Shown: positions 751 to 63,174 of the stretch, in pieces | Layout: each line of letters opens with the position of its first letter | Numbering within the stretch: position 1 is the first letter of the stretch | NCBI GenBank assembly: GCA_029233965.1 | Contig: JARGOP010000014.1 | Coordinates: forward strand, 25,950-89,123 | Source: Verrucomicrobiales bacterium | GTDB taxonomy: Bacteria; Verrucomicrobiota; Verrucomicrobiia; Verrucomicrobiales; DEV007 | Reading direction: 5' to 3' | DNA length: 63,174 nt | Made by a program: the position numbers and the translations under genes | Notes under the pieces: generated by a model | Databases searched by the model: none | What the model was told of the DNA's origin: nothing | Seen by the model: the letters and a program-made list of their open reading frames with translations, nothing else

Positions 751-3700
751 TCGTCGAGAAATTTAAAATAGATGACACGATACTTGATCGCCGGTTGCGG
801 AGGGTTGTAGGCCTCCTCGAGACTGCTCGAAGTCCACCTGACACTGCCAAGGGCTCTCGATGCGTATTCGTCCATCTCCACTTCCTGAGGTCCGTCAAAC
901 CAGGGATACATACCGTTCGGATCGAGTGTCAGCCGGTTCCCTCCTCCCTTTCTCAGGGGGGGCGAGCCGGGGAGCTGAAAAAGGGTGTCTGTTGTGGTGC
1001 CGTCCCACCCACTGGTGGACTGATTCTGACGCGCGAGCCGATCCCATCGCCCCATCGAATCGGCATGGGCATTTCCGGGCCGCCCATCCCGCCCAGGCCA
1101 GATGTATCGTTCGATGAGGGCGTAGAAACGCTTCTCTGCCAAAACCTGATCACCATCCTCAAATTCCCCCCACTCCGTGTGCCCGGGAATTTTCCGGACC
1201 ACTTGCGCCGCGCCCCAGAGTCCGAAGGTATTGGACTGCGTCGTGAGGCAGCCTGCCATGTTGCGGAGAAACTCCTCGTTCTCAAATTCGGTCGCGCCCG
1301 GAGTGCTGCGTTGATATCCCTCCACTTTCGAAAGCTCCCCGATGTAGCGGAAAAAATCATACTCCTGGTATGCCTTGATCCCTGAAACGAACTGATCGAT
1401 TTCCGCATCCGGCCGAAGATGGGCAAAGACCGCTTCGAGCGGCTTCGTTCGCGGAGGCGGGCGGAACCATTCGTTACTTTCTGGATAGATCCGCGAATTC
1501 AGATTGATCTGACCGGCCGTACTGTTCATGAACGAAACCGTGGAAAACTCATCCGGGAGGGTCGAATTGATCTTCCATTGATCGTGCTGCATGGGATAGG
1601 TTGCCCCGAGAAGATTCAAAAGGAGAGAATCCGGTGGATCTCCGGATTCAAGTCGCCCTCCGAGGTTGAGGGTTCGCCAGGGCTCCCGACTCTGGATCCC
1701 GGTGTGAAGGACACTCCAGTATCCTTTTGAGGAAACGCGACTCCGTGAGTTGTATTCATCGGGCCGGTTAAGTCCAAAGGTTTTCCCGGCGGATTTTTCC
1801 GGGTCGCGCGCGCTCCCGGGGCCTCTTTGAAAATATCGGAACTTGCTCCGCTCTGAGGCCGTTCTTTCCGGCTCGAGGAGCGTTCCCCCGATCGCATTCG
1901 GAGAACCGGGAGTGCCTCCACCCTCCGTATCGATGATCCACTCCTCTTTATGTGAGCTGAGGCGGGGATCATTGATCTGCCAGGATACCGTTTCCCGGTC
2001 GCCGGTTCGAAGATCAAGGGAGAAGGTGGCCTGAAGCGTGTCCTCCTCATCTTCCCCCAAAGGAATCATCTGACGGGGTCGCCTACTGTCCGAACTCACC
2101 GTCATTCCAAGCCGCCAATTCACCTTAAAGCTGATCCGGGGATTCTTCCTGATATCTATCTCGGCCGCTTCATCGCTGATATCGGGCTGGTTGTCCTCAG
2201 GATTAGCGAGGAAACGGGACCGTTTTCCAAGGTATCGCCACGGGCTTGAGACGAGAACCCGGTTCTGGACGACTTTATTCGGGTGAAAATCGGAGGCGAT
2301 CCTTACTTTGTTTCCTGCCACCGCGCTGAGAGAGCCGAGACTGCGGCGATCGACAAGTCTCTTGGGTTTTCCATTACGGTTAAAGAGGACCTCACCGGTC
2401 TCATCATCAACCCGGTTCTTCGAGGGGTTGTAGTTCCAGTTTCGATCCGGACGACCCTCCCCCGCTTCTCGATTTGGCGGTCCCAACTCATAGATCGCCG
2501 GCACCCCGGGGATTCCGCCACCCATTTCTACTTTGAAATAATCGACGCGCATCGGGAGCGCGTTCAGATACGCAACCGGGCCGAGTCCATGCATGAAATA
2601 TTCCACTTCATATCGCACCCCTATCTGTCGCTTCGTGGGACTCCCTCCGGGAGCTGGGAATGATTTAAAGTGAAGACGAACTTCCGTGATGTGCGGTCCC
2701 GGGGTCTGGGGAAGCATTGGGATCGTCTCTGCCGGACCTGCCCCGGGCGGCTCTAAGTCCACCTCCCAGTAGTGCCGCTCCGGGTTCGCCTTCGGCCGCT
2801 CGGTCGCATGCGGCGAATAGAGAACCGAAGTCGATCGAAGGCCAAGGTCCCGGGTCGAATTGATTTCCATCTTCGCTCTCATCGTTGTCGTCGCCATCCG
2901 GGCCATGGTGAGCATGTTCAGAGCGATCTGGTAACATTCCGCCTCGCCGTATTTCCCGATAAAACTTTTTCCATAGCCGGGCCACTCCCGGGAAAAATAG
3001 CGCATCAGCATTTCCAACTGGGCACGATTCACCACATTGGCGGCGTGAACTTTCCCTTTCTCTTCATCTTCGAACTCATGCGTAAACCCGAGACTTCCGA
3101 GTAGAGAATTGAGGTGAAGAACTCCGCTGATCTCGTAGTCGGGATCTTTTACTTCAGGACCGTTGTAAACGAAAGGAAGCTGATAAAGCGGACCGGCTTC
3201 CAGCGAAAGCGGATAGTTCGTCGTAAAAAAACGGGAGCGCCCAAAAGCATTGAATTCCGGAGCACGACTATAAAACGTGAGATGAAATTTATTTCGATGA
3301 TACCATTCCTGCCGGTCCCTCTCCGGCATATCGACGAATTCGAGAATCGATTCGGGGTACCGGCTGAATCCGCGAAGCCACGCATGCGCTAGAAGCTTCT
3401 CCTCGAGAAGATCCTTCCGATCGTCAAAGAGAACGTCGAGGTTGATAGAGCGCGGCTGTCCGAGGCCCCATTCGCGATCCTGACTCTTGGCGTTAAACTC
3501 CACATCTCCGGCTCCACCGGTAAAAAGCGGTGGCATCATTCCGAGAGCATATTGCTCGTAGAAACGCTCCGTGTCGACCTTCCCCCGCGACGGCTTTCCC
3601 AGCGCGACATTGAAATTGATCCGTGCGCTCTCGTCATCGATCCAGAACGCATACCGTGAGGAAATTGGATTATCTGAATCAGCAGGTTCCCCGGGGTTCC

Positions 3701-4250
3701 GGAGGACTGGTACCCACTTCACTCTCATCGGGGGGATCTCAGCGTTACTCCCGGCGCGATCTCCTTCCGACATGACAATGGGGGGAAATTCTCTTCCGGG
3801 AATTGGTTCGTTCAAGTCGACTGAGGAGACATCGGGGTCAATGGTGTCGTTCGGATCGCTCTCCGCGACTCCGGTGTGGAGAGGGACATAAACGATGCTC
3901 CCGCTGTCATCAAACAGAGTGATCCGGCCCGGATTGACCGCCCAGTTGCGCGCCGGGGTTCCCGCCGCCGATTCATGAATCATGGAGGGCTCCGGGATCG
4001 CTGTCCTCAGGATATCGATACCATGACTGACGGTTCCCTGCGCCACCATCTTCACTTCCTGAGTGTGAGCAAATGCATGAGCAGCCCTCTGCTCGATCTG
4101 CATCGTGCTGAAGTAGGCCAATGTCAGGATCGCGAGCATGGAGACTACCAGCAGGACCATGACCAACGCCCCCCCCCGACGGGAGAACCTTCTTCCATCC
4201 GATCGATCCGGAAGGAAGACTGAATGGCGCGGAGGTTCGATCATTCTCAC
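747..4250 (-). CDS. Verru_Chthon cassette protein A (large pilin-associated protein)
   Basis: Encodes 1167 residues. After about 25 basic residues comes one hydrophobic segment (residues about 27-48, GGALVMVLLVVSMLAILTLAY) and then a long extracytoplasmic region, the layout of PilX/GspK-like minor pseudopilins. Length, position and partners match the Verru_Chthon cassette protein A family, known from Verrucomicrobium and Chthoniobacter as one of four genes found together. It overlaps gene C upstream and the 222-residue gene downstream by 4 bases each. The role is unproven; by analogy with type II secretion and type IV pili it may sit at the tip of, or be carried by, a short pseudopilus. Confidence 0.85.
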   Translation of the reverse strand: MRMIEPPRHSVFLPDRSDGRRFSRRGGALVMVLLVVSMLAILTLAYFSTMQIEQRAAHAFAHTQEVKMVAQGTVSHGIDILRTAIPEPSMIHESAAGTPARNWAVNPGRITLFDDSGSIVYVPLHTGVAESDPNDTIDPDVSSVDLNEPIPGREFPPIVMSEGDRAGSNAEIPPMRVKWVPVLRNPGEPADSDNPISSRYAFWIDDESARINFNVALGKPSRGKVDTERFYEQYALGMMPPLFTGGAGDVEFNAKSQDREWGLGQPRSINLDVLFDDRKDLLEEKLLAHAWLRGFSRYPESILEFVDMPERDRQEWYHRNKFHLTFYSRAPEFNAFGRSRFFTTNYPLSLEAGPLYQLPFVYNGPEVKDPDYEISGVLHLNSLLGSLGFTHEFEDEEKGKVHAANVVNRAQLEMLMRYFSREWPGYGKSFIGKYGEAECYQIALNMLTMARMATTTMRAKMEINSTRDLGLRSTSVLYSPHATERPKANPERHYWEVDLEPPGAGPAETIPMLPQTPGPHITEVRLHFKSFPAPGGSPTKRQIGVRYEVEYFMHGLGPVAYLNALPMRVDYFKVEMGGGIPGVPAIYELGPPNREAGEGRPDRNWNYNPSKNRVDDETGEVLFNRNGKPKRLVDRRSLGSLSAVAGNKVRIASDFHPNKVVQNRVLVSSPWRYLGKRSRFLANPEDNQPDISDEAAEIDIRKNPRISFKVNWRLGMTVSSDSRRPRQMIPLGEDEEDTLQATFSLDLRTGDRETVSWQINDPRLSSHKEEWIIDTEGGGTPGSPNAIGGTLLEPERTASERSKFRYFQRGPGSARDPEKSAGKTFGLNRPDEYNSRSRVSSKGYWSVLHTGIQSREPWRTLNLGGRLESGDPPDSLLLNLLGATYPMQHDQWKINSTLPDEFSTVSFMNSTAGQINLNSRIYPESNEWFRPPPRTKPLEAVFAHLRPDAEIDQFVSGIKAYQEYDFFRYIGELSKVEGYQRSTPGATEFENEEFLRNMAGCLTTQSNTFGLWGAAQVVRKIPGHTEWGEFEDGDQVLAEKRFYALIERYIWPGRDGRPGNAHADSMGRWDRLARQNQSTSGWDGTTTDTLFQLPGSPPLRKGGGNRLTLDPNGMYPWFDGPQEVEMDEYASRALGSVRWTSSSLEEAYNPPQPAIKYRVIYFKFLDE

Positions 4251-47195: not shown

Positions 47196-50100
47196 TCAGG
47201 AAGGTTTCGACGAACCCAAATGCTTCTCCCGGAAGGCGGCAATCCCGTCCTCCGGCAGGAAGAATCCTGCCATCTGCAACTTCGCCGGGGTCACTCCCAG
47301 TTCTTCGAGAAACTCAAAGTGGGCGAGCGCATCTGCATTTTCGAGCGGTCCAACCGTAGGCGCCACGTCCTCACTCAATCCGGTGAGCAGGCTGACGAGA
47401 ACACATCCCGTGATCTCATTCTTATCCCGGCTACTGAGGAACTTCACAAACCTGAACTGGACCGCGTCGTCCATTTCTTCGACTCCTTCGGGAAGATAGA
47501 TGGTTTCCGCAACCACGTCAGTCATCTTGAGTTCACCGCCCGTGGTGAAAAGGATGTCACGCTCCGTCGTGAAACGCCGGATCGCTTCGTCGACGCGGAA
47601 TACGGGTGGGAAACTGTAGTCGACCACCAGAGTGCCCGGCTTCAGTGACTTCACGTTGAGCACGCCGGGAAGGTTCGTCGAAGCAACGACAAGGGATCCT
47701 TCGTATACCTCAGGAGGGAGAGCGCCACCGTTCTTCACAATATCTACCTGTCCTATGAACCCGGCATCACGAACCTGATCGCGGATGCGACTCATCTGAT
47801 CGTCGGTCTGGTAAGGATCGCAAAGGATGAGATGCTTGGGATGATCCATAACATCAAGCATCAATCGAAGCGTTCCAAATCCGATCGATCCAAGTCCTAC
47901 AACGGAAACCGTCTCACCTGCGAGCTCACGTTTCGCCTCAGCGAGGATTCCCTCGACAGATTTCACGATTGTCGCCGAGCGGGTCGCGTCACCGGTGGTG
48001 ATCGCCGGAAGCCCCACAGTTCCCTCCATCCACTTCTCGATGTCGCGACCATGATCCGTTGTCGCCGGAATCACTCCGGTGAGCGAAACATTCTTCGCTC
48101 CCGCTTTGCCTGCCATTTCGAGAGCAGCCAGCGTTGCCGACTTAACCGATGCGGGATCTTTGTAGAGATCAGCCTCAAAGCAAGGAAGCATGATCACACC
48201 GATCCTGCCCTGGTTAAGCGTGTAGGTATTGCTGAGGAGTGGCTTCCCGCTGAAAAGACGCTCGGAGATTTCATCCCGCTTCATGCCGGAAATGCCGGCA
48301 AGCACGTCGGGAATGTAAGTGAGAGCAACCGCATCCAGATCAGGCAGTTCATCAACCGCATCTTCCACGTCAATGTGAGCGAGGTCTTCGATATCGATGT
48401 CACCAAGACTCTCCGCAGCTTCCGCCTCGGCGGGAATCCCGGCAGCCGGAGTCTCTCCTTCGAGATAACCCGCCAACTGCTCAATGGTTGGATGAGTCAG
48501 GAAAGCATCCACGGCAAGATCACGCTTAAACGCCTCGGAAACGTCAACGACGATTCGGAGCGCCATGAGCGAATCCCCACCCATCTCGAAGAACTGATCG
48601 GTCACACCGATGTCCTCGGAGTCGAAGTTCCGGCAGAAAATATCCCAGATCTTCTCCTCGGTCTCAGTGCGGGGCTGAACTCTCTCACCGACACTGGCGG
48701 AACCAACCTTCGGCATCGGCAACTGCTTGCGATCAATCTTTTTGTTCGGCGTCAGCGGAAATTCCGAAAGCGCGGCAAAGTAGGCCGGGATATAACTCGC
48801 GGGCAAATTTCCGGAGAGCTGGCCGCGGATCTGAGCAGCGTCGAGAGCGGGACCTTCGCTGATGTAGTATCCAACAAGACCTTCGCCCGTCGGGAGATCC
48901 TCGCGCTTCGTCACGACCGCCTGCTTGATGCCGTCGATCGCCTCCATCTGTGTTTCGATATCTCCGAGTTCCATACGGACTCCGCGAACCTTCACCTGAA
49001 AATCGACGCGGCCGAGGCACTCCAGCTTACCGTCACGATTCCAGCGAGCAAGGTCGCCGGTGCGGTAGATGCGCTGCTTTCCAAGCTCAGGAAGCTCGAT
49101 CTCCCGGAACGCGGCGGCAGTCAACTCGGGCTGATTCCGGTAGCCCCGGGCGAGGCCGTCACCACCGATCCAGAGTTCCCCGGTGAATCCCTGCGGCACG
49201 GGATGATGTTTCGCATCGAGAATGTAGACCTGCGTGTTCGCAATCGGCTTACCGATCGAAATCGCGGCATCCCCTTCTTCGATTTTCTCAACCGCAGACC
49301 AGACGGTTGTCTCAGTCGGACCATAGAGGTTCCAAAGCTCGGCTGCGGAATTCACGAGGGTATTCGCAAGTGTTCGATTCAGAGCCTCGCCACCACAGAA
49401 AATACGCAAATCGCTATTCCCCTCCCAGCCGCTGTCGAGCAGCATCTGCCAGGTTGCAGGCGTCGCCTGCATCACGGTGATGTCCTCCTCATTGAGAAGG
49501 TTCGCGAGGCGTCGCCCATCTTTCACATCCTCAGCCCCTGCCACAACCACGGTCGCACCGGCAAGGAGCGGCAGGAACATTTCGAGAAGCGAGATATCAA
49601 AGGAAAGCGTCGTCACCGCGAGAAGACGATCTTTGCTCGTGAGCCCCGGCGTCTTCTCCATGGAGCGGAGGAAGTTAACCGCAGCACGATGTGGAATCTC
49701 AACCCCCTTCGGTGTTCCTGTCGAACCGGAGGTGTAAATAATGTAGGCAAGCGAGTCGGCACTGAGACCGGTCGACGGAGGCGCTTTCGAAGTGCCTTCG
49801 ATGGCATCGAGGTCGAGAACTCTCCAGTCACCCGACGGCAATGAATCGACAAGGCGTGAGGAAGCCACGAGCGCTTTCGGTGCCGCGTCCACCAGCATCA
49901 TTTCGAGACGCTGCTGCGGGAATTCAGGGTCGAGCGGGATGTAGGTGGCTCCCGCCTTCAGGGCCCCGAGGAGAGCGGTGATCATCTTCGGAGAACGATC
50001 TGCGAGAACACCGACAGTATCACCGGGCTTTACCCCGGCTGCGATGAGATCACGCGCCACACCGTTTGCCTGACGATTCAGAGAACCGTAGGTCATGTGA

Positions 50101-53100
50101 GTTTCGCCGAAGATCACGGCCGTGTCTTCGTCACGGTCCGCGACGACAGTTTCAATCAACTCATGGAGGAGAGCGCTGTCCTCGTAATCCGACTTCGTGT
50201 CGTTAAAGTCCACGAGGACAGTCTTCTCTTCGTCACGGCCAAGCAGGTTGAGTTCCGAGAGACGGACCTCAGGATTTGCAGTGATCTCATTGAGCACCTG
50301 CTCGTAGAGCCCACTGAGTTCCAGAATCGTTGCTTCGTCGAAAAGGTCAGTATTATACTGCCAGCAACCGAAAAGCTGACCGCCCGCTTCTTCGAGCGTG
50401 AGCGTGATCTCAAACTGCGATTGACGCGTCGTGAGGTCGATCGTCTCCATCGAGAGATCACCGACGTGGAAAGTGTGACCGCCCTGACCGATCAGGAATA
50501 CGGCGATGCCGGCTTCGTCGATACCGGGCACCTTCTCCATGGAGAAACTGACCTGGAAAAGCGGAGAGCGCCCCGGATCGCGCGGGACCTTAAGACGGTC
50601 GACCATGCGGGCCAGCGGATACTGCTGGTTTTCCAGCGCTCCGTTGACACGGCGACTGTTGCTCGAAAGGAATTCAGCTACTGTTGGATCGTCCTCGACC
50701 GTGCTTCGAACCGGAACCGGATTGATGTAGTAACCCACCGTGCTCCGAAGCTCAGGCTGCGTCCGTCCCGCAAGAGGAACACCGATCACGATGTCATCCT
50801 GCTGGCAGTAGCGGTGCATGAGAATATCATAGGCCGACAAGAGAGTCGTAAAGAGCGTCACATTGTTCGCTTTCGCCAACTGATCGACCGACTCGGTCAA
50901 CTCTTCGCCAAACTGGAAGCCCAGAGTGCCGCCGTTAAAGGTCTGAATCGCCGGACGCGGGCGGTCCGTAGGAAGATCAAGAACACTCGGCGCCCCGGCA
51001 AGATGCTCCTGCCAGAACTCGTACATCTTCTCTCCCGCCTCGCTTTCGAGGTGTGCTTTCTCCCAAGTGACGAAATCAGCATAGGTTGCTTCGACAGGCT
51101 CAACCTGTGGAGTCCGGCCGGCCTTCGCGGAGAAATAGTACTCGATGAGATCCTGAATCACGACCGCCACCGACCAGGCGTCGGAGACAATATGATGCAT
51201 TGTCAGGAGAGCCACATGCGCTTCGTCCGCAGTGCGGAAAAGCTCGAGTCGCACCACGGGACCACGCTCCAGGTTGAAGGGACGACTCGCGTGCTCGCTG
51301 ATCGTCTTCTTCAACTGCTCGTCATCGAGAGAGGTGCAATCGTGCTCACGGAAATCAACGGTACGACCTTTGTGAACGACTTGCATCGGCTCTCCGTCCT
51401 TCGTCGTGAACGTCACGTCGATAAGGGGATGACGCTCGAAGAGAAGCGAGAACGCCGTCTTCATTGCATCAATGTCAAGCAACGGGCGGAACTTACCTGA
51501 GAAGTTCAAATTGTAGGCCGATGAGTTCGGCGCGAGGCGGTTCAGGAACCAGAGTGCTTTCTGACCTTCCGAAAGCGGGAAGACGTCAGGCATCACTCCG
51601 GTGGCCTCGAATTCGACAAGGCTTGCGGCATCAATACCGGCTCCAGGACCGGCAGCTCCGCCACCGGATTCGAGCAGTTTCTCAAGCACCGGCTCGGAAA
51701 GATCGCGAATGTTCGGGCCGTTAAGAACGGATCCCATCGGCATCGTCATGCCCAGTTTTTCCTCGATCCGGTTCACGAGCTCAATCGCCATGAGTGAGTC
51801 GAGTCCGAGGTTGGTCAACGGCGTATCTTTGTCGAGACGCGCGGCATCGGTGCCCAGAACCGCGCCGACCTGAGCCGCAATGAGATCTTCGACCATGCCC
51901 ATGCGCTTGTCGGCGGGCGCTTCGAGAATCCGGGCAGCCATGGAATCACCGCCACCCGAGCTTGAGCGAGGGACCACAGGGAGGAACATATTCGACCCCC
52001 CGACGGAAGGACTGAAACGGCTCAGAGCCTGCCAGTCGCATCGTGCCGCACCAAGTTGATAGATATCGGACGGCACACCGAGACTGAAGAGATAAAGCGT
52101 CTCTTCGATATTCGTCGCACCAAGTCCAACGAGTTCGAGATACTGCTGGGTCTTCTCGTTCCGTGCGACAAATCCGGCTCCTTCGATCGCACCCCAGTTG
52201 AAGGTCAGCGAAGGAAGACCCATCGAACGACGATGATGCGAAAGCTGATCGAGGAAAACGTTTCCGGCGTTGTAGTTCGACTGCTTCACTGCGCCGATGA
52301 ACGCGGAGAAGGAGGAGAAGTTGATGAAGTGCTCAAGCGGAATGTCGAGGGTCGCTTCATGCAGGTTCCACGCACCGAGCATTTTCGGAAGGAGCACACT
52401 GTCGAAGCGCTCCGTATCGAGTTCCTTGAGAAACTCGTCGTCCAGGACCATGGCCCCGTGAATAACGCCAATGAGCGGGAAATCAGACTTCTGAACCTCG
52501 GCAACGATGCGGTCGATATCGGCACGACTCGTGACGTCGCCGCGAGCATCCATGATGTTCGCGCCGGCTGCGGTAAGCTTGGCGATCTTCTCCTGAGCGT
52601 CTTCCTTCGGTCCGGAGCGACTCATGAGGGCGAAGCTGCGCGCTCCGTTGGCCATCATCCACCCGGCCAGCTCAAGGCCGAAACCACCGGCACCACCGGT
52701 AATGAGATAGGTTCCGTCACTGCGGAAGCGATGCCCCTCTTCGGTCGGCTGACCGATTTCAATCACGGGGACGTCAAAGTCGAGCACGTTCTTACCGATG
52801 TGCTTACCGGCCGCCATGAAACGGAAAGCTTCGACCACTTCAGTGATCGGAAAGACTTCGTTCGGAAGCGGCACGTAGGACTGGTCGTAGAAGAGCGCTT
52901 CAAGATCGGAGAACATCTTCGCAACGTAAGCCGGCTTGCTCTGCAGGTGCTGCGCGAGGTCAATCACGAAGAAGCTGATATTATTGCGAAGCGGTTCCAG
53001 GCCAATTTTCGAGTTACCATAGACATCCACTTTACCGATCTCCATGTAGCGCCCGAAGGTCTTGAGAACACTGAAATTCTTCGGAATGAAATCACCGGCG

Positions 53101-56100
53101 AGCGAGTTCAGGACCGCGTCGACCCCCTCCCCGTTCGTGATTCGCATGATCTCATCAGCGAACTCAAGCGTCCGTGAATCAAGGACATGATCAACGCCCA
53201 TGTCGACGAGAAGCTGGCGCTTCTCAGGAGTGCCTGCGGTCGAGAACGTGACGAGACCAAGGTGCTTCGCGATCTGGATTGCAGCCTGGCCAACCCCACC
53301 GGTTCCCGCATGAATGAGGATACTCTCCCCTTTTTCCATCCGGGCGAGCTCATTGATTGCGTAATGAGTCGTGAGGAAGACAGTCGGAAGCGTTGCCGCC
53401 TCGACGTGAGTCATCGTGTCAGGCTTCCGGAAAACCATGTCGCGATGAACCGTGACATAGCTGCGGAAACAGTAGGGAGCCATGCCGACAACATTGTCAC
53501 CGACCTTGAGGTCCTTCACATTCGCGCCGACCTTGACGACCGTTCCGGAGAAGTCATCCCCGAACCATTTGAGGTCGACGGGATTACCCGGGTAAATCCC
53601 GAGAGCCTTCATCACATCGCGGAAGTTGATTCCGCCGGCCTTGATCTGAATTTCGATCTCGTCCCCTTCCGGATCGCGACGGGTCGTCTCGTTCAACGAG
53701 AGGTTGGTGAGAATACCGGGCTTGTCGATCTGAAGTCGATAAGGAAGCACCGACCCGTCCTCCTGGACCGCGTTGCGGGTGCGGGGAGGAAAGTCCTCGG
53801 ACTTGATGCGATGCACCCGTCTTGCGTAACGACCGTTTCCGCGAAATGCGAGTTCGTGCTCTCCATCGGAGTGGAGCAACTCAGCGGCGAGATCCTCGAG
53901 TTCGAAAGCGTTCTCGTTCGGATCGAGATCGATCTGCCCCCAGCAGTATTCCGCCTGCTCATTGTTTGCGACACGGAGCAGGCCCGTGATCGGAGAGGAA
54001 GCGAGACCCGGAAGAGCCTCCCCGCGAATCACCGGCATCGTGCCCCGGGTCAGAAATGTAAAGTTCGGCTTCTGAGACCATTCACGGCTCGTGGCCAATT
54101 TGAAGAACTCGTGGGCAAAACGCACCCCCGTGTCCTGGGCTGCATTCAAGACATCGAGAGTCAACTCATCCGCTCTCGGATGATCGAGTGCCAGGGTCGA
54201 AACGAAACGCTTGAGCATGAGTCCCTCTTCATCGATGGCATCGAAAGCCGCTTCAATCTCAGCAATCGTCCCGCCGACAAGGCGCGGCTCCACTTCATCG
54301 GTTTCGAGCTTTCCGAGAAGTTTCTCCCCGAGACCGGAGGCATCCTTAGTGATGAGGATGATAGACTTCGCCGCAGCTTTCTCTTCCACCACTTCCGCAT
54401 CAATGACCTCGCCGTCATCCAACTCCTCAGGAGCCGGCTCGACCGGATCGGGTGCGCGGGCTATCAAGCAGGCCTGCTGGTTCTGCTTCGGATCCTCCGA
54501 ACTGATAAAACTATCGACACCGCGATAGCCGAGACCCGTGAGGAAGGAAATCCACTCCTCGCGGGAAAGAAGCGCAGAATCTTTCCGAAGATCAGTGTCT
54601 TTGAAACGCCACCAACCGGGAAGGAGACCGAAGACGTTATCGAGTGCGGCCCGGCGCCAGGTCACCTCGAGGAACATAAGGATTCCGTTCGGTGCGAGAG
54701 CACGCTGGAGATTCCGGAAAGTGACTCTTAAATCCTCCGTCGCGTGGATCACGTTGGACGCAAGAATGATATCAAAATGATGAGGATCAAACCCCTGAAG
54801 CTCAGGGTCCTTCTCACAATCGAACATCTTGTATTCAACGAAAGGATAGTCCTCGCCGAAGCGGTCTTCGGCGGCCTGAAGAAAGAGCGGACCATTGTCT
54901 GTGAAAACATATTCAGTCCGATCCGAGGGGAAAAGAGAAAGCAAATTACTCGTCAGAGAGCCGGTTCCCGCACCCACCTCAAGCACGCGAATAGCACGCC
55001 GCTCAGGAAGATTGGCCACCGCCGCAACGAGGGCATCACGAATCTGATCGTTAATGACCGGAAAGTCAGCTCCTTCCCGATAGAAGCGCTCCATGATGCG
55101 GGACGAACCACCGGGGAAAAGCACCTCAAGAGGATCCGTTTCTCCACTGAGAACTTCGGCGAGGTTCGGCCCGGAGAGACGCTGAAGCTCCGCTTCCGAA
55201 GCAAACTCCGGCATGTCCTCGGCCAGCTTGTCAAGATACGGCAGGGCATCTTCGTCGCCCGGAACTTCGATGACCTCCCACTCCTGATCACTCGATTGCT
55301 TGAGGAAACCGCCCTCTTCCAGAGCCGTGAACTGCCCGCGCACCAGCTTTGCATGCTGATCCGCAATCGCGAGATCCGCCATGAGGCCTTCAACCGTTAC
55401 CTTGTCGCCTTCCTTCGGATCCCATCCGAGTTGGAAGTAGGCATTGATGATGAACTGACGGGAAATCTCGTCGAGAGCGGGAAGGAAGGTGGCGTAGTGA
55501 TTCGCGAGGCCGCGTTCCCGGTAATACTTCGGAAGCTCACGATTCGCCGCAGCCACGAGTTCTTTCGGATCCGGAATATTGGCATCGCCATCCTCACGGG
55601 TCCCCTTGAGACGGGCAAGCTCCCAGCGGGCCTGATAAAGACACTTCTCGAGATCGTCCGTATTGCTTTGCTCAACCCGATCCGCCCGGAAGCCATAAAT
55701 CTCTGCGACGAGATCGCCGGCGTCGTTGTAGACATCGATATCTGCGATGATGTATTCGCGATCGTTGTCGGAATTCACTTTCGCATGCCCCCAGAGACGA
55801 AGCGGAGGGCGCTCCACATGAAGGCGGATACTGCGGATCGCGGCAGGAAGATAGAAATAATCCCGGGCGTTGGCCCCGTCGGGAATGACCTGCCCACCCT
55901 TCACGGTGTGGAAACAGGCATCAAGAACGGCCGGATGAAAGTGATGATCCGGAATGGTGTCATAGAGACCCTCCGGCGCAACGATTTCAGCAAGACACTC
56001 ACCGTCTTTTCTCCAGACATTTCGAAGGTGCTGAAAGAGAGGGCGGAACTGGTAGCCGGCCTCTTCGTAATCCTCATAGTATTCCTCGTGATCGAAGTGA

Positions 56101-59100
56101 CGCGGCAGGTCCTTTTTCACTTTCTCGAAATCAAGCTGCGGCTTCATCGGCGCGGGCTGCTTCCTGAGGACCCCCTGAGAGTTCAAATCCCACTCTCCCT
56201 TTTCACCGGTCGATGAGAACACCTGAAAGACGCGGGTAGTCGGATCAAAGACCACTTCAACCGTCGGCACTTTCTCTTCGGAAACGAAGAGCGCCTTTTT
56301 CATTTCGAGGTCCTCGACAACGTAATTCTCTTCCGGGAAAAGCTTGCGGGCAATCGCGATACCGATTTCACCATAGCCGGCGGCGGGGAAAACAACACTG
56401 TCCCAGAAACGGTGATCATCGAGCCACGTGAAGTAGCGGGGATCCAGTTCGAAACGCCAGGTCGGACGCGGCGCAGTCTGCTTCAGTCCGAGCAGCGGGT
56501 GCTCAAGCGGCGCACAGCGGAGATACTCTCCTTCTTTCGACTCAAGCCAGAACACCTCTTTCTGCCAGGCGTAGGTGGGGAGTCTCACGCCTTTCGGAGA
56601 AGCCTGGTTTACGGACTCCCAGTCGATTTCGTAGCCGTGGTTGTGAAGACGGGCGAGATTGGAAAGCAATTCGACTGATTCGTCCGTCTTGCGCTTCAGG
56701 CTGGAGAAGTAGAAGCCCTTCCGCCCCTGATCGGAAAGACACTCCATGATCGGATTCTGCAGCGCAGGGTGAGGCCCGAGTTCAAGGAAGGAATCTTCGC
56801 CGGAACGAATCAGGTTCTGGATCGCAGGCGCAAAAAGCACGGCTTCGCGAACATTGTTCCACCAATACTCGCCGTCGATCCTGGTGCCTTCATACACACC
56901 ACCGGTGACCGTCGAGATGTAGGGAATCGTCGTCGCACGCGGTTTGATGTCTTTGAGAACTTCAAGGAGTTCCTCCTTGATCGGCTCCATCTGATGCGTG
57001 TGGAAGGCATAATCAATCCGCAGCCAGCGAACAAATTTGCCCTGCTCTTCAAGTTCAGCGACCACCTCTTCCAATGGACCGGTATCCCCTGCCAGAGTGA
57101 GAAGTCCGGGGCTGTTCACCACCGCGATTTCGACCTGCTCCTCTTTCCCGACAATGGCCTTCTTGGCTTCGGCCTGAGAAAGACCGACCGCAACCATGCG
57201 GCCGTTTCCTCCCGTCTCATCCTGGAGTCGTGAACGATGATAGATAACCGTCACCGCATCTTCCATTGTGTAGGCACCGGCCACATAGGCCGCGGCAACT
57301 TCACCCACAGAGTGACCGACAACTTTCGAGGGCACAATACCCCATGACTTCCAAAGCTCGGCGAGAGCTACCTGGAGACCGAAAATCGCGGGCTGCGCGA
57401 TGTTTGTTCTGTTGATCTGCGAAGTCTCTTCATCGCGGGTCATCTCTTCAATCAGCGACCATCCTGCAAGAGGCTTGAGATGCGTGTCGATTTCCTCAAG
57501 CACTGCGCGGAAAACAGGCTCACGCTCAAGCAGTTCCTGTCCCATCGCCCACCACTGGGCGCCCTGACCGGTGAAGACGAAAACCAGCGGATGCGCCTCC
57601 CCGGAAGGTTTGCCGGGAATCGCTTTACCGCTCGCGCCGGTGGCAAGCCACTCGGTCATTTCATGGACAAAATCCTTTTTCGTCTGCGCCACAAACGCAA
57701 GACGATTGTCGTGGTGCTCCCGCTTCAATCCCGCTGCGGAACCGATCGCATTGATGTCGTCATTTGTAGCACGAAGATAACGCCGCCAGCGCTTCACGGT
57801 GTCGCGAAGAGCATCATCGCCACGGGCGGAAAGCGGCATGAGGACAGGTCGTTCCGCTTTCTTCGCAGTTCCGCCACTCAGAGTCACGGAATCCCGTTGC
57901 TCCGCTTTCGTCGGCACCTCTGCCGGAGCCGCCTCCAGCACAATGTGAGAGTTCGTCCCGCCAAAACCGAAGCTGTTCACGCCCACAACCGGAAGCCGGC
58001 CTTCAAGATGGGGAAGGGGCTGCAACTCAGTCACAACCTTGAACTTAAATTCGTCGAACGGGATATTCGGGTTCGGGTTCTTGAAATTCAGGTTTGCAGG
58101 AACCTGGTCATGATGCAGCACGAGCGCCGCTTTCGCGAGACCGGCAACACCTGACCCGGACTCAAGGTGACCGACATTTGTCTTCACTGAACCAATGAGA
58201 CAATAGTCATCCTTGTCCCGCCCCTGGGAAAGGACCTGGCCAAGGGCTCGGGTTTCAATCGGATCACCAACCGGAGTTCCGGTGCCGTGAGCTTCCATGT
58301 AGCGAACCGCTTTCGGCTCAAGACCGGCCTGCGCGTAGGCAATACGAAGCATCTCCGCCTGGGTCTCGACACCCGGCACCGTCATCGAGGAGGTATTACC
58401 GTCCTGATTGATGACTGCTGCCTTGATCGTGCAATAGATACGATCTCCATCCGCCCGGGCCTTGCTCAATGGTTTGATCACAAACATCCCGGCACCTTCA
58501 CCGCGGACGTAGCCGTTGGCACGATCATCAAAAGCAAAACACTGACCGGTCGGGGACAGCATCGTCGCTTTCGAGAAACCGATCGACGCATCCGGGGTGA
58601 TGAGAGCGTTACAACCTCCCGCCAGCGCCATGTCTGCCATTCCTGACCAGACTGATTCACAGGCCAGATTTATCGCGACGAGCGCGGACGAACATGCCGT
58701 ATCAACGGACACTGCCGGACCTTTGAAGTCGAGGAGATACGAGATGCGGTTTGAGGCAATTGAAAGTGTCGAACCGGAGTTTGTGTGCACGTCTACATTG
58801 CGCGGATCGCTCTGGGCGACGTTCGCATAATCGTTCGAAGCGATCCCGACGTAGACGGCCGTATTTGAACCACGGAGTTTGTCCGGAGCCATGCCGGCAT
58901 CTTCAAGTGACTCCCATGCTGTTTCGAGCATCCAGCGCTGCTGAGGATCCATGCGCAAAGCCTCGCGTGGGGAAATACCGAAAAATTGAGCGTCAAACTT
59001 ATCGTGGTCATGGATAAATCCACCCCACTTCGTGATCATCTTGCTCGGAATCTCAACATTCTCGTGATGCCAGCGCTCACGATTCCAGCGGTTTGAAGGA

Positions 59101-59234
59101 ACCGGAATAATCCCGGAGCGCTCTTCGACCATCATTTGCCAGAAGGATTCAGGGCCAGTCACGCCACCCGGAAGGCGGCAACCGATTCCTACGATAGCCA
59201 ACGGCTCGCGAGTCACTGATTTATTGTCAGACAT
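47196..59234 (-). CDS. Hybrid iterative-type PKS-NRPS megasynthase with AAR-like terminal domain
   Basis: One 4012-residue protein. Domains: KS 10-434 (Cys181, His316, His356); AT 550-870 (Ser642 in GHSVGE, His745 in YAFH: malonyl-CoA likely); DH 910-1190 (His941, Asp1105, but HxxxDxxxxP in place of HxxxGxxxxP); C-methyltransferase 1230-1600 (EVGAGTG 1419-1425, His1497, Glu1523); pseudo-KR 1620-1820; ER 1830-2155 (HAGTGGVGQ 1975-1983); KR 2170-2400 (TGGAGGFG 2179-2186, Lys2284, Ser2308, Tyr2321, Asn2325, LDD 2264-2266: B-type); ACP 2440-2520 (Ser2480); C 2545-2990 (HHIVSDAW 2680-2687); A 3020-3515 (core 3162-3182, glycine-like code); PCP 3520-3590 (Ser3555); acidic linker; C-terminal Rossmann domain 3636-4008 (LPCF 3683-3686, TTGDATR 3746-3752, GLGSIG 3780-3785). 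No thioesterase. It is predicted to make a reduced, methyl-branched acyl-amino product released by reduction. No partner genes are seen. Confidence 0.95.
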   Translation of the reverse strand: MSDNKSVTREPLAIVGIGCRLPGGVTGPESFWQMMVEERSGIIPVPSNRWNRERWHHENVEIPSKMITKWGGFIHDHDKFDAQFFGISPREALRMDPQQRWMLETAWESLEDAGMAPDKLRGSNTAVYVGIASNDYANVAQSDPRNVDVHTNSGSTLSIASNRISYLLDFKGPAVSVDTACSSALVAINLACESVWSGMADMALAGGCNALITPDASIGFSKATMLSPTGQCFAFDDRANGYVRGEGAGMFVIKPLSKARADGDRIYCTIKAAVINQDGNTSSMTVPGVETQAEMLRIAYAQAGLEPKAVRYMEAHGTGTPVGDPIETRALGQVLSQGRDKDDYCLIGSVKTNVGHLESGSGVAGLAKAALVLHHDQVPANLNFKNPNPNIPFDEFKFKVVTELQPLPHLEGRLPVVGVNSFGFGGTNSHIVLEAAPAEVPTKAEQRDSVTLSGGTAKKAERPVLMPLSARGDDALRDTVKRWRRYLRATNDDINAIGSAAGLKREHHDNRLAFVAQTKKDFVHEMTEWLATGASGKAIPGKPSGEAHPLVFVFTGQGAQWWAMGQELLEREPVFRAVLEEIDTHLKPLAGWSLIEEMTRDEETSQINRTNIAQPAIFGLQVALAELWKSWGIVPSKVVGHSVGEVAAAYVAGAYTMEDAVTVIYHRSRLQDETGGNGRMVAVGLSQAEAKKAIVGKEEQVEIAVVNSPGLLTLAGDTGPLEEVVAELEEQGKFVRWLRIDYAFHTHQMEPIKEELLEVLKDIKPRATTIPYISTVTGGVYEGTRIDGEYWWNNVREAVLFAPAIQNLIRSGEDSFLELGPHPALQNPIMECLSDQGRKGFYFSSLKRKTDESVELLSNLARLHNHGYEIDWESVNQASPKGVRLPTYAWQKEVFWLESKEGEYLRCAPLEHPLLGLKQTAPRPTWRFELDPRYFTWLDDHRFWDSVVFPAAGYGEIGIAIARKLFPEENYVVEDLEMKKALFVSEEKVPTVEVVFDPTTRVFQVFSSTGEKGEWDLNSQGVLRKQPAPMKPQLDFEKVKKDLPRHFDHEEYYEDYEEAGYQFRPLFQHLRNVWRKDGECLAEIVAPEGLYDTIPDHHFHPAVLDACFHTVKGGQVIPDGANARDYFYLPAAIRSIRLHVERPPLRLWGHAKVNSDNDREYIIADIDVYNDAGDLVAEIYGFRADRVEQSNTDDLEKCLYQARWELARLKGTREDGDANIPDPKELVAAANRELPKYYRERGLANHYATFLPALDEISRQFIINAYFQLGWDPKEGDKVTVEGLMADLAIADQHAKLVRGQFTALEEGGFLKQSSDQEWEVIEVPGDEDALPYLDKLAEDMPEFASEAELQRLSGPNLAEVLSGETDPLEVLFPGGSSRIMERFYREGADFPVINDQIRDALVAAVANLPERRAIRVLEVGAGTGSLTSNLLSLFPSDRTEYVFTDNGPLFLQAAEDRFGEDYPFVEYKMFDCEKDPELQGFDPHHFDIILASNVIHATEDLRVTFRNLQRALAPNGILMFLEVTWRRAALDNVFGLLPGWWRFKDTDLRKDSALLSREEWISFLTGLGYRGVDSFISSEDPKQNQQACLIARAPDPVEPAPEELDDGEVIDAEVVEEKAAAKSIILITKDASGLGEKLLGKLETDEVEPRLVGGTIAEIEAAFDAIDEEGLMLKRFVSTLALDHPRADELTLDVLNAAQDTGVRFAHEFFKLATSREWSQKPNFTFLTRGTMPVIRGEALPGLASSPITGLLRVANNEQAEYCWGQIDLDPNENAFELEDLAAELLHSDGEHELAFRGNGRYARRVHRIKSEDFPPRTRNAVQEDGSVLPYRLQIDKPGILTNLSLNETTRRDPEGDEIEIQIKAGGINFRDVMKALGIYPGNPVDLKWFGDDFSGTVVKVGANVKDLKVGDNVVGMAPYCFRSYVTVHRDMVFRKPDTMTHVEAATLPTVFLTTHYAINELARMEKGESILIHAGTGGVGQAAIQIAKHLGLVTFSTAGTPEKRQLLVDMGVDHVLDSRTLEFADEIMRITNGEGVDAVLNSLAGDFIPKNFSVLKTFGRYMEIGKVDVYGNSKIGLEPLRNNISFFVIDLAQHLQSKPAYVAKMFSDLEALFYDQSYVPLPNEVFPITEVVEAFRFMAAGKHIGKNVLDFDVPVIEIGQPTEEGHRFRSDGTYLITGGAGGFGLELAGWMMANGARSFALMSRSGPKEDAQEKIAKLTAAGANIMDARGDVTSRADIDRIVAEVQKSDFPLIGVIHGAMVLDDEFLKELDTERFDSVLLPKMLGAWNLHEATLDIPLEHFINFSSFSAFIGAVKQSNYNAGNVFLDQLSHHRRSMGLPSLTFNWGAIEGAGFVARNEKTQQYLELVGLGATNIEETLYLFSLGVPSDIYQLGAARCDWQALSRFSPSVGGSNMFLPVVPRSSSGGGDSMAARILEAPADKRMGMVEDLIAAQVGAVLGTDAARLDKDTPLTNLGLDSLMAIELVNRIEEKLGMTMPMGSVLNGPNIRDLSEPVLEKLLESGGGAAGPGAGIDAASLVEFEATGVMPDVFPLSEGQKALWFLNRLAPNSSAYNLNFSGKFRPLLDIDAMKTAFSLLFERHPLIDVTFTTKDGEPMQVVHKGRTVDFREHDCTSLDDEQLKKTISEHASRPFNLERGPVVRLELFRTADEAHVALLTMHHIVSDAWSVAVVIQDLIEYYFSAKAGRTPQVEPVEATYADFVTWEKAHLESEAGEKMYEFWQEHLAGAPSVLDLPTDRPRPAIQTFNGGTLGFQFGEELTESVDQLAKANNVTLFTTLLSAYDILMHRYCQQDDIVIGVPLAGRTQPELRSTVGYYINPVPVRSTVEDDPTVAEFLSSNSRRVNGALENQQYPLARMVDRLKVPRDPGRSPLFQVSFSMEKVPGIDEAGIAVFLIGQGGHTFHVGDLSMETIDLTTRQSQFEITLTLEEAGGQLFGCWQYNTDLFDEATILELSGLYEQVLNEITANPEVRLSELNLLGRDEEKTVLVDFNDTKSDYEDSALLHELIETVVADRDEDTAVIFGETHMTYGSLNRQANGVARDLIAAGVKPGDTVGVLADRSPKMITALLGALKAGATYIPLDPEFPQQRLEMMLVDAAPKALVASSRLVDSLPSGDWRVLDLDAIEGTSKAPPSTGLSADSLAYIIYTSGSTGTPKGVEIPHRAAVNFLRSMEKTPGLTSKDRLLAVTTLSFDISLLEMFLPLLAGATVVVAGAEDVKDGRRLANLLNEEDITVMQATPATWQMLLDSGWEGNSDLRIFCGGEALNRTLANTLVNSAAELWNLYGPTETTVWSAVEKIEEGDAAISIGKPIANTQVYILDAKHHPVPQGFTGELWIGGDGLARGYRNQPELTAAAFREIELPELGKQRIYRTGDLARWNRDGKLECLGRVDFQVKVRGVRMELGDIETQMEAIDGIKQAVVTKREDLPTGEGLVGYYISEGPALDAAQIRGQLSGNLPASYIPAYFAALSEFPLTPNKKIDRKQLPMPKVGSASVGERVQPRTETEEKIWDIFCRNFDSEDIGVTDQFFEMGGDSLMALRIVVDVSEAFKRDLAVDAFLTHPTIEQLAGYLEGETPAAGIPAEAEAAESLGDIDIEDLAHIDVEDAVDELPDLDAVALTYIPDVLAGISGMKRDEISERLFSGKPLLSNTYTLNQGRIGVIMLPCFEADLYKDPASVKSATLAALEMAGKAGAKNVSLTGVIPATTDHGRDIEKWMEGTVGLPAITTGDATRSATIVKSVEGILAEAKRELAGETVSVVGLGSIGFGTLRLMLDVMDHPKHLILCDPYQTDDQMSRIRDQVRDAGFIGQVDIVKNGGALPPEVYEGSLVVASTNLPGVLNVKSLKPGTLVVDYSFPPVFRVDEAIRRFTTERDILFTTGGELKMTDVVAETIYLPEGVEEMDDAVQFRFVKFLSSRDKNEITGCVLVSLLTGLSEDVAPTVGPLENADALAHFEFLEELGVTPAKLQMAGFFLPEDGIAAFREKHLGSSKPS

Positions 59235-62501: not shown

Positions 62502-63174
62502 GTGTTCGAAAACCTCGAAAAGATGGAAAATCCCCTTGTACTTTTGTTAGTTTCAAGTAGGTCCCGGCATGGAAGAAATTCGCATCCATCCGAAGGACGC
62601 CGCCAACGCAAAGCGGCTCAAAAAATTAACGAAGACCGAGCGAGTACCTGCACGAACGCAAAGAGCTCGAAGGGAGGAAGACCGCCTGCCGATACCGAGC
62701 GCATTCTGCAAGGGATTCTTTCCGGCTGCGGGAAGGTTGTTCTTGGCGTGCTTTGAGCACCTTCGCTCCTTCCACCACGATCTACACCCGTTGGAAGAGT
62801 TGGTGTGAAACGGGAGTGTGGGACCGCATTCTCGATGCGCTCGCGGAAACGGCGAGTGGGAAGCTCCGGGCGATCGATTCCAGCTGCGCGAAAGTCCACA
62901 AACACGCGTTCGGAGGCATGCAAGGTCCTGAATTCCAATGCATCGGAAAGACCAAGGGCAGTGCAAACACGAAGATCCATGCGCTGGTCGACAACCAGGG
63001 TCGCTCCGTTCGAATCCTCCCCGGAGCTGGAAACCGTCACGACAGCATTGCCGCACCAGAACTCGTCGAAGGGCAAACATCCAGGACGATCCCTGCGGAC
63101 AAAGCCTACGGGAGCGCGATCTTTCGCGCTCTTCTGGAATCGCTCGGGCTGAAGGCCTGCATCCCTCCGAAAGC
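62502..63174 (+). pseudogene. Frameshifted IS5-family transposase, cut by the window end
   Basis: The N-terminal half (GRPPADTERILQGIL) is in one frame up to about 62720, and the rest continues in the -1 frame (FRLREGCSWRALSTFAPSTTIYTRWKSW ...). This second part has the DDE-type pattern of IS5 elements: AIDSSCAKVHKHAFGG with the first Asp, NTKIHALVDNQGRSVRI, and IPADKAYGSAIF with the second Asp; the third acidic residue lies beyond the window. A one-base deletion near CTTTCC explains the shift; some IS5 relatives use frameshifting, but no classical slippery site is seen. The sequence before GRPP does not match any transposase start I know. A left end may lie near 62498 (GAGCGTGTTCGAAAA), next to a CTAG. 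Confidence 0.75.

Follow-up and report, generated by a model that had tools for sequence, protein, structure and literature searches.

A monomodular reducing PKS-NRPS with an AAR/TAD-type release domain and a co-occurring sulfotransferase in a family of Verrucomicrobiales, pointing to a probable sulfated lipid

The window (the whole 63,174-nucleotide stretch analyzed here, from contig JARGOP010000014.1 of a Verrucomicrobiales bacterium) carries a 12-kb gene for a single-module reducing PKS-NRPS, and across the family this gene occurs together with a sulfotransferase gene, the pair pointing to a sulfated lipid. Our preferred reading, to which we give a probability of slightly under 60%, is that of an iterative reducing PKS-NRPS making an N-acyl-glycine chain, with NADH-dependent release by an AAR/TAD-type domain and sulfation by the partner enzyme. 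The KS-AT-DH-cMT-ER-KR-ACP module would be used repeatedly to give an acyl chain, probably methyl-branched and largely reduced, which the C domain would join to glycine loaded on the PCP by the A domain. The terminal domain would then move the chain onto Cys3944 for NADH-dependent release, in all likelihood to an aldehyde and onward to an alcohol, and the sulfotransferase would sulfate the product to an anionic lipoamide, e.g., an N-acyl-aminoethyl sulfate.

The gene is one open frame from ATG to stop, and Pfam and NCBIfam searches of the 4012-aa protein placed KS-AT-DH-cMT-ER-KR-ACP-C-A-PCP and a C-terminal oxidoreductase on a single chain (Table 1), which confirms the single-gene, single-module reducing PKS-NRPS proposed by the initial annotation. 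The AT has a YAFH-type specificity motif, which we take to be probably that of a malonyl enzyme. Five KS matches were found in the genome (151 contigs, 96% complete), one in a type I PKS and the other four in frames of 428 to 532 aa; since the type I KS is single, the genome has no further PKS modules. Iterative use of the module is suggested by three features taken together: the one reducing module includes a methyltransferase, the genome has no second type I PKS, and the chain lacks a loading domain. Alternatively, the module would be non-iterative, taking a fatty acyl starter supplied by primary metabolism, extending it once or a few times, methylating and reducing it, and handing it to the NRPS part. 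A single extension of this kind is conceivable and weighs against the preferred reading, given that a lone KS cannot by itself demonstrate iteration, that a loading domain is missing, and that FabF-like KSs are encoded separately in the genome. We nevertheless consider it unlikely, as known iterative enzymes likewise combine a complete reducing loop and a cMT in a single module, and as MAS, which scores highest among solved proteins over the full chain (1055 bits), is iterative. For the swf cluster, discussed below, the authors left both iterative and non-iterative use of the PKS open in the available part of their paper (PMC3908369). Elsewhere in the window genome, a contig end (G000:C74, L074:2531-9314) has a type II-like cluster with SDRs, an ACP, a dehydratase-like gene, tandem KS genes, and an AcpS-like domain, and a second NRPS-like protein of 1066 aa (A-PCP-C) is encoded at G000:C87 (L073:7227-10427, -).

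TABLE 1 Coordinates of the PKS-NRPS gene and its domains in the window
Feature	Position	Strand	Basis or remark
Whole gene, PKS-NRPS-reductase	47196..59234	-	4012-aa frame
KS, residues 10-511	57702..59207	-	Pfam PF00109/PF02801/PF16197; DTACSSA, EAHGTGT, K(T/S)N(V/I)GH in 30/30 orthologs
AT, residues 551-868	56631..57584	-	Pfam/NCBIfam; YAFH-type specificity motif
DH, residues 912-1190	55665..56501	-	Pfam/NCBIfam; H941, D945 (Gly replaced), P950
C-methyltransferase with HTH_51, residues 1236-1528	54651..55529	-	Nearest solved protein CurJ
ER, residues 1858-2152	52779..53663	-	Pfam/NCBIfam; nearest solved protein MAS
KR, residues 2174-2351	52182..52715	-	LDD motif, Tyr retained
ACP, residues 2451-2514	51693..51884	-	Ser 2480
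Condensation domain, residues 2550-3004	50223..51587	-	HHxxxDA
Adenylation domain, residues 3029-3441	48912..50150	-	Code DILQFGLVWK, glycine-like
PCP, residues ~3520-3590	48465..48677	-	Second PP-binding stretch, GGDSL
AAR/TAD-type NAD-binding release domain (predicted), residues ~3630-4012	47199..48347	-	Structure search, predicted model
Codon of Cys3944	47403..47405	-	Aligned with Cys2238 of carmabin TAD

The window protein was aligned with 29 full-length family members, picked from the 49 other matching family genomes because the whole frame was within reach and to spread them over genera, and with a non-ortholog from genome G097 (L071), giving 31 rows. The latter, an NRPS that has four A and four C domains and ends in a TAD-type domain, was left out of all ortholog counts. 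Since the 12-kb frame is open in all 29 relatives and the KS Cys/His/His, AT GHSVGE, cMT, ER, KR, C (HHxxxDA), A, and reductase motifs and the ACP and PCP serines are intact in 30/30 orthologs, the frame is not a product of chance. At the DH glycine position, 29 of the 31 rows, including the window, have Asp (HxxxDxxxxP), and one ortholog has Asn; as all other orthologs share it, the Asp is a lineage trait rather than a sign of decay. The catalytic residues that could be checked had been described as intact except for one DH glycine; the main catalytic motifs are indeed intact, with a conserved Asp in place of the "missing" residue.

At the C-terminal end of the chain, Pfam returned no family above its cut-off over the last ~380 residues and no SDR-type R/R* match at an E value of ≤10 in the terminal 423 aa, and NCBIfam gave a weak match to PigE (31 bits). 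Among solved structures, the domain matched the "TAD" entries of the carmabin pathway (E value of 2e-69, ~35% identity over ~380 residues). An AlphaFold2 model built on a 24-row alignment (mean pLDDT of 82.6) found the same entries as its best structural matches, 9e50 (Z of 50.6), 9e4s, 9e4u, 9e56, and 9e4x, all with a Z of ~50, followed by acyl-ACP reductase 6jzu (Z of 27.3) and 6jzz, 6jzy, and 6jzq (Z of ~27), with ordinary NAD dehydrogenases in a third tier (Z of ~14). Cys3944 (C355 of P0002) and Asp217 are invariant in 24/24 rows, as are G191, S194, I195, and G196 of the Rossmann glycine motif, G193 being almost so. With a numbering offset of 1904 inferred from the aligned ranges, Cys3944 aligns with Cys2238 of the carmabin TAD, the residue in disulfide linkage with dephospho-CoA according to the title of PDB 9e56. 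As the NAD-bound TAD does, the domain has an Asp after its second strand, from which we infer that it uses NADH. On the predicted model, the terminal domain is of the AAR/TAD fold and keeps the acyl-accepting cysteine.

The product released by such a domain could be of two kinds. In the cyanobacterial AAR, Cys294 accepts the acyl chain before hydride attack, and kin of AAR yield aldehydes, the PtTamH reductase being interpreted as aldehyde-forming (PMC9594044, in its available sections). Alternatively, the NADH-binding TAD-type domain would form a terminal amide, giving an N-acyl-glycinamide, and the sulfotransferase would act on a hydroxyl retained in the polyketide. The carmabin TAD structures are by far the closest relatives, and their class is thought to be amide-forming, which weighs against the preferred reading; C-terminal amides have also been proposed for the related vatiamide and hectoramide domains, although the amide chemistry is itself presented as a hypothesis in the portion of PMC10949194 at hand. 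Thioester reduction is, however, what an AAR fold with an NAD(H) cofactor and this cysteine would suit, in line with the aldehyde-forming interpretation of PtTamH, and we regard the amide as possible but somewhat unlikely.

A scan of genome contigs with the terminal domain alone gave 23 loci, all Verrucomicrobial or Akkermansiaceae by title. Three plasmid records have relatives of the domain: two are from Streptomyces, one a PKS-NRPS and the other a hypothetical protein, and the third is a stand-alone gene of Pantoea. On Streptomyces fungicidicus plasmid p1 (L081:9360-21137), a lone PKS-NRPS with a different domain order ends in an AAR/TAD-type domain (31% identity across 369 residues), and on Pantoea stewartii plasmid pCN101 (L082:14833-16122), the stand-alone relative lies within an NRPS/PKS cluster that also encodes a luciferase-like monooxygenase. 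The NRPS of G097, from another family of the order (L071:3789-18044, 4751 aa), has an end 35% identical to that of the window enzyme.

With the usual position scheme, counted from the conserved motifs and assumed to hold here, the code of the A domain is DILQFGLVWK in 23/30 orthologs, DILQLGLVWK in 5/30, and DILQLGMVWK and DIMQFGLVWK in 1/30 each, so that DILQ(F/L)GLVWK is common to 28/30. The available text of PMC12283262 gives DILQLGMIWK as a glycine code and Leu/Met299, Leu/Met322, Ile/Val330, Trp331, and Lys517 as glycine-derived positions. Because the window code matches these positions, with Phe at position 299 as a small deviation, the predicted substrate is likely glycine.

By a search with the terminal domain, the PKS-NRPS is present in 50 of the 74 genomes of the window's family and in 11 of its 18 genera. 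Among the 41 good genomes (≥90% complete and ≤5% contaminated) it is found in 34, so that the gene is conserved in the family, where the initial annotation had expected a conserved small product from its setting in a core region; the synthase match of G032 carries one flagged internal stop (TGA, TAG, or TAA). At the order level, the terminal domain occurs in 51/288 genomes, the NRPS of G097 being its sole occurrence outside the family, and in a phylum sample 4/387 genomes matched, one being that of the window and the other three giving weak, partial hits. The gene neighborhood is less constant. Both flanking genes named at the outset were recovered: mdh adjoins the PKS-NRPS in 16/16 same-genus loci, and the SGNH-like gene, whose GDSL/SGNH-like protein scores 31.5 bits against a Pfam cut-off of 32.9, lies beside it in 11/16, two of the 16 stretches ending too early to tell. 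A third neighbor, malQ, adjoins in 15/16. All three are absent from the 13 loci of other genera; as they are confined to same-genus loci, the synthase has been kept while its neighbors changed.

Several candidates for a pathway partner were considered. The SGNH gene and the PKS differ in presence in 20/74 genomes, and a Sfp-type PPTase (profile match at a looser cut-off of 1e-10) and the PKS in 25/74; both candidates were rejected. An SDR lies near the PKS in L064, L067, L068, and L069 and a different one in L059; no SDR partner can be named because the window genome has many SDRs, the best at 39%. No conserved adjacent aldehyde-to-alcohol reductase was found near the PKS, which weighs against the preferred reading.

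The sulfotransferase tracks the PKS far more closely than the SGNH and PPTase genes, which serve as controls. A Sulfotransfer_3-like gene adjoins the synthase in 6 of the 13 loci of other genera (Pfam was run on four), and contig positions add three further genomes with an adjoining gene, for a total of nine genomes from 5 of the 11 PKS-bearing genera. In five loci it follows the PKS on the same strand with a gap of 0 to 18 bp. The window genome has a relative of this gene at G000:C137:30618-31778 (L099:8619-9785, +; 44% identity), unlinked to the PKS. At a cut-off of 1e-40, fixed before the result was seen, 50 of the 74 family genomes have the sulfotransferase; 48 have both genes, 22 neither, two only the PKS (G018, 52% complete, and G071, 81%), and two only the sulfotransferase (G016, 77%, and G065, 90%), an agreement of 70/74. 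In the good genomes, agreement is complete (41/41, both genes being present in 34 and both absent in 7). Fisher's P of the co-occurrence is 3.8e-4 over genera and 1.9e-14 over genomes, the latter being inflated because the genomes are related and non-independent. The enzyme had been called a lone one, which stands in that it is the single type I PKS of the genome and fails in that an unlinked sulfotransferase partner exists.

All 6/6 sulfotransferase sequences read have the motif GHWRSGTTHLHNL, which we take to be of the PAPS type, and the enzyme probably adds sulfate to the PKS-NRPS product. Further observations weigh against the preferred reading: sulfotransferase and PKS are not neighbors in the window's own genus, and genome G148, without a PKS, has a sulfotransferase at an ortholog-like score (325 bits). 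The latter is among the 12/214 order genomes outside the family that pass 1e-40, the other eleven scoring 152 to 226 bits. If the preferred reading holds, an unclustered megasynthase, found in most good genomes of the family, would gain a specific enzyme as its partner and be assigned a definite class of product. Going further, the two genes, for a 12-kb enzyme and an often unlinked sulfotransferase, might define a near-core, family-wide pathway in mostly uncultured Verrucomicrobiales to N-(polyketide acyl)-aminoethyl sulfates, sulfated lipids of a class not seen before, an extension that we think doubtful. The gene directly after the window genome's sulfotransferase resembles lpxB by eye; a presumably lpxB-like neighbor would fit an envelope lipid and proves nothing. 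The sulfotransferase matches of G034, G044, G046, and G067 each have one internal stop flagged (TGA, TAG, or TAA).

The order of domains recalls fungal enzymes, and a fungal-type HR-PKS-NRPS, horizontally acquired or convergent and making a tetramic acid or an aldehyde, was therefore weighed. Fungal HR-PKS-NRPSs have the order KS-AT-DH-cMT-ER-KR-ACP-C-A-PCP and a C-terminal SDR-type R/R* domain; the window enzyme is like those of the psoA type through the PCP, and its release domain has another fold and its sequence is closer to bacterial enzymes. For KS-AT, the solved proteins CurL (674 bits), PikA (647), EryAII (631), and MAS (613) score above the fungal psoA (498) and LovB (464); 7zma heads the list at 703 bits because two KS matches of a two-KS chain are summed. 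Over the whole chain, MAS leads, followed by psoA (935), LgrA (808), and LovB (712), the high rank of psoA reflecting that it too has an NRPS half. The cMT scored 224 bits with CurJ, 145 with DisA, 143 with the fungal citrinin PKS, and 98 with LovB, and C-A scored 481 bits with LgrA versus 299 with psoA.

In a KS tree, nine Verrucomicrobial rows formed one clade (100/100) and the two fungal rows a separate one (100/100). In a second tree, from which L081 and L109 were left out as long branches, CurL, EryAII, MAS, and three plasmid KSs formed a six-row modular clade (99/96) with the Verrucomicrobial KS outside it, and PTM KS rows (one with annotated neighbors) joined Paenibacillus (98/91) without Verrucomicrobial rows; PikAI and the remaining rows sat on the KS backbone without resolution. 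The motif used retrieved no KS from L091. The window KS, the single type I KS of its genome, thus lies outside this modular clade rather than inside modular cis-AT groups with other modules encoded elsewhere. AU tests gave p values of 0.30 (first tree) and 0.235 (second) for Verrucomicrobial and fungal KSs as one clade and 0.385 (second tree) for a clade with the lone reducing PKSs of Deinococcus, Persicobacter, Aureibacter, Paraburkholderia, and Pseudomonas, so that neither grouping is rejected. The best named plasmid KS-AT matches are lone synthases, 43 to 46% identical, and because the two tested share the KS-AT-DH-MT-ER-KR-ACP order, this order is not exclusively fungal. The window protein has matches to HTH_51 (22.7 bits, below the cut-off of 50) and to ACP_SdgA_C (38.6 bits), the latter model also matching PKSs of Deinococcus and Paraburkholderia below its own cut-off. 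With an identical domain order, these model matches, and the AU values on one side and, on the other, higher scores with bacterial proteins for the tested domains and the missing R/R* domain, we find the fungal-type reading very improbable. Fungal descent was rejected as unsupported, not disproved, the tested domains being closer to bacterial proteins and the KS backbone poorly resolved. The likeness put forward in the initial annotation therefore holds for domain order, lacks support for kinship, and falls for the terminal domain, which is AAR/TAD rather than R/R*; the window enzyme would illustrate the extent to which a fungal-looking order can arise on a bacterial background.

Some bacterial systems share parts of this layout. 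PTM synthases are also single-chain, single-module PKS-NRPSs, with the order KS-AT-DH-KR-ACP-C-A-PCP-TE, to which the window enzyme adds cMT and ER, with an AAR/TAD-type end replacing the TE; it also differs in its glycine-like code and in having no desaturase or FAD oxidoreductase neighbors. The available part of PMC10308959 describes a PTM-like monomodular KS clade with Verrucomicrobia members, which may contain relatives of the window enzyme. With PTMs and this clade already described, the existence of a lone Verrucomicrobial PKS-NRPS is not in itself novel, and the rule that bacterial PKS-NRPSs are usually multi-module or split has described exceptions. The Deinococcus sp. QL22 plasmid PKS (WP_249395503.1) and the lone PKS of Paraburkholderia dioscoreae are single KS-AT-DH-MT-ER-KR-ACP chains with KS-AT 44 to 46% identical to that of the window enzyme. 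The NRPS part of the former is separate, with a nitroreductase domain, and thioester reductase is annotated as its own gene, whereas the window enzyme is fused; the latter has no NRPS gene in the capsule-like stretch shown. The Deinococcus plasmid (L084) thus has a split analogue, with genes for a PPTase, the reducing PKS, the C-A-nitroreductase protein, and the annotated thioester reductase in a row.

The swf cluster of sponge symbionts is a precedent that, like the system described here, combines a reducing type I PKS of one module with reductase and sulfotransferase functions, there interpreted as possibly giving a terminal primary sulfate; as far as the excerpted PMC3908369 goes, its PKS is KS-AT-DH-ER-KR-ACP alone, without cMT or NRPS, and its R-ST is fused on a separate protein. 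The release domain is like the carmabin TAD (9e4s, 9e4u, 9e4x, 9e50, and 9e56) in predicted fold, NAD binding, and acyl-accepting Cys and, by the accessible part of PMC10949194, follows a PCP as do those of vatiamide and hectoramide. These three are cyanobacterial peptide pathways, whereas the window domain ends a monomodular reducing PKS-NRPS in Verrucomicrobiales, which would extend a release domain with solved structures, among those found here, from the carmabin pathway and cyanobacterial AAR only to reducing PKS-NRPSs. In the open-licence literature, we found no account of a lone Verrucomicrobial PKS-NRPS that combines cMT and ER with an AAR/TAD-type end, and none that links such an enzyme to a sulfotransferase; the putative sulfotransferase partner is new here. 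At the end of the window, a frame at 62753-63172 (+) that runs off the sequence resembles an IS-type transposase by eye.
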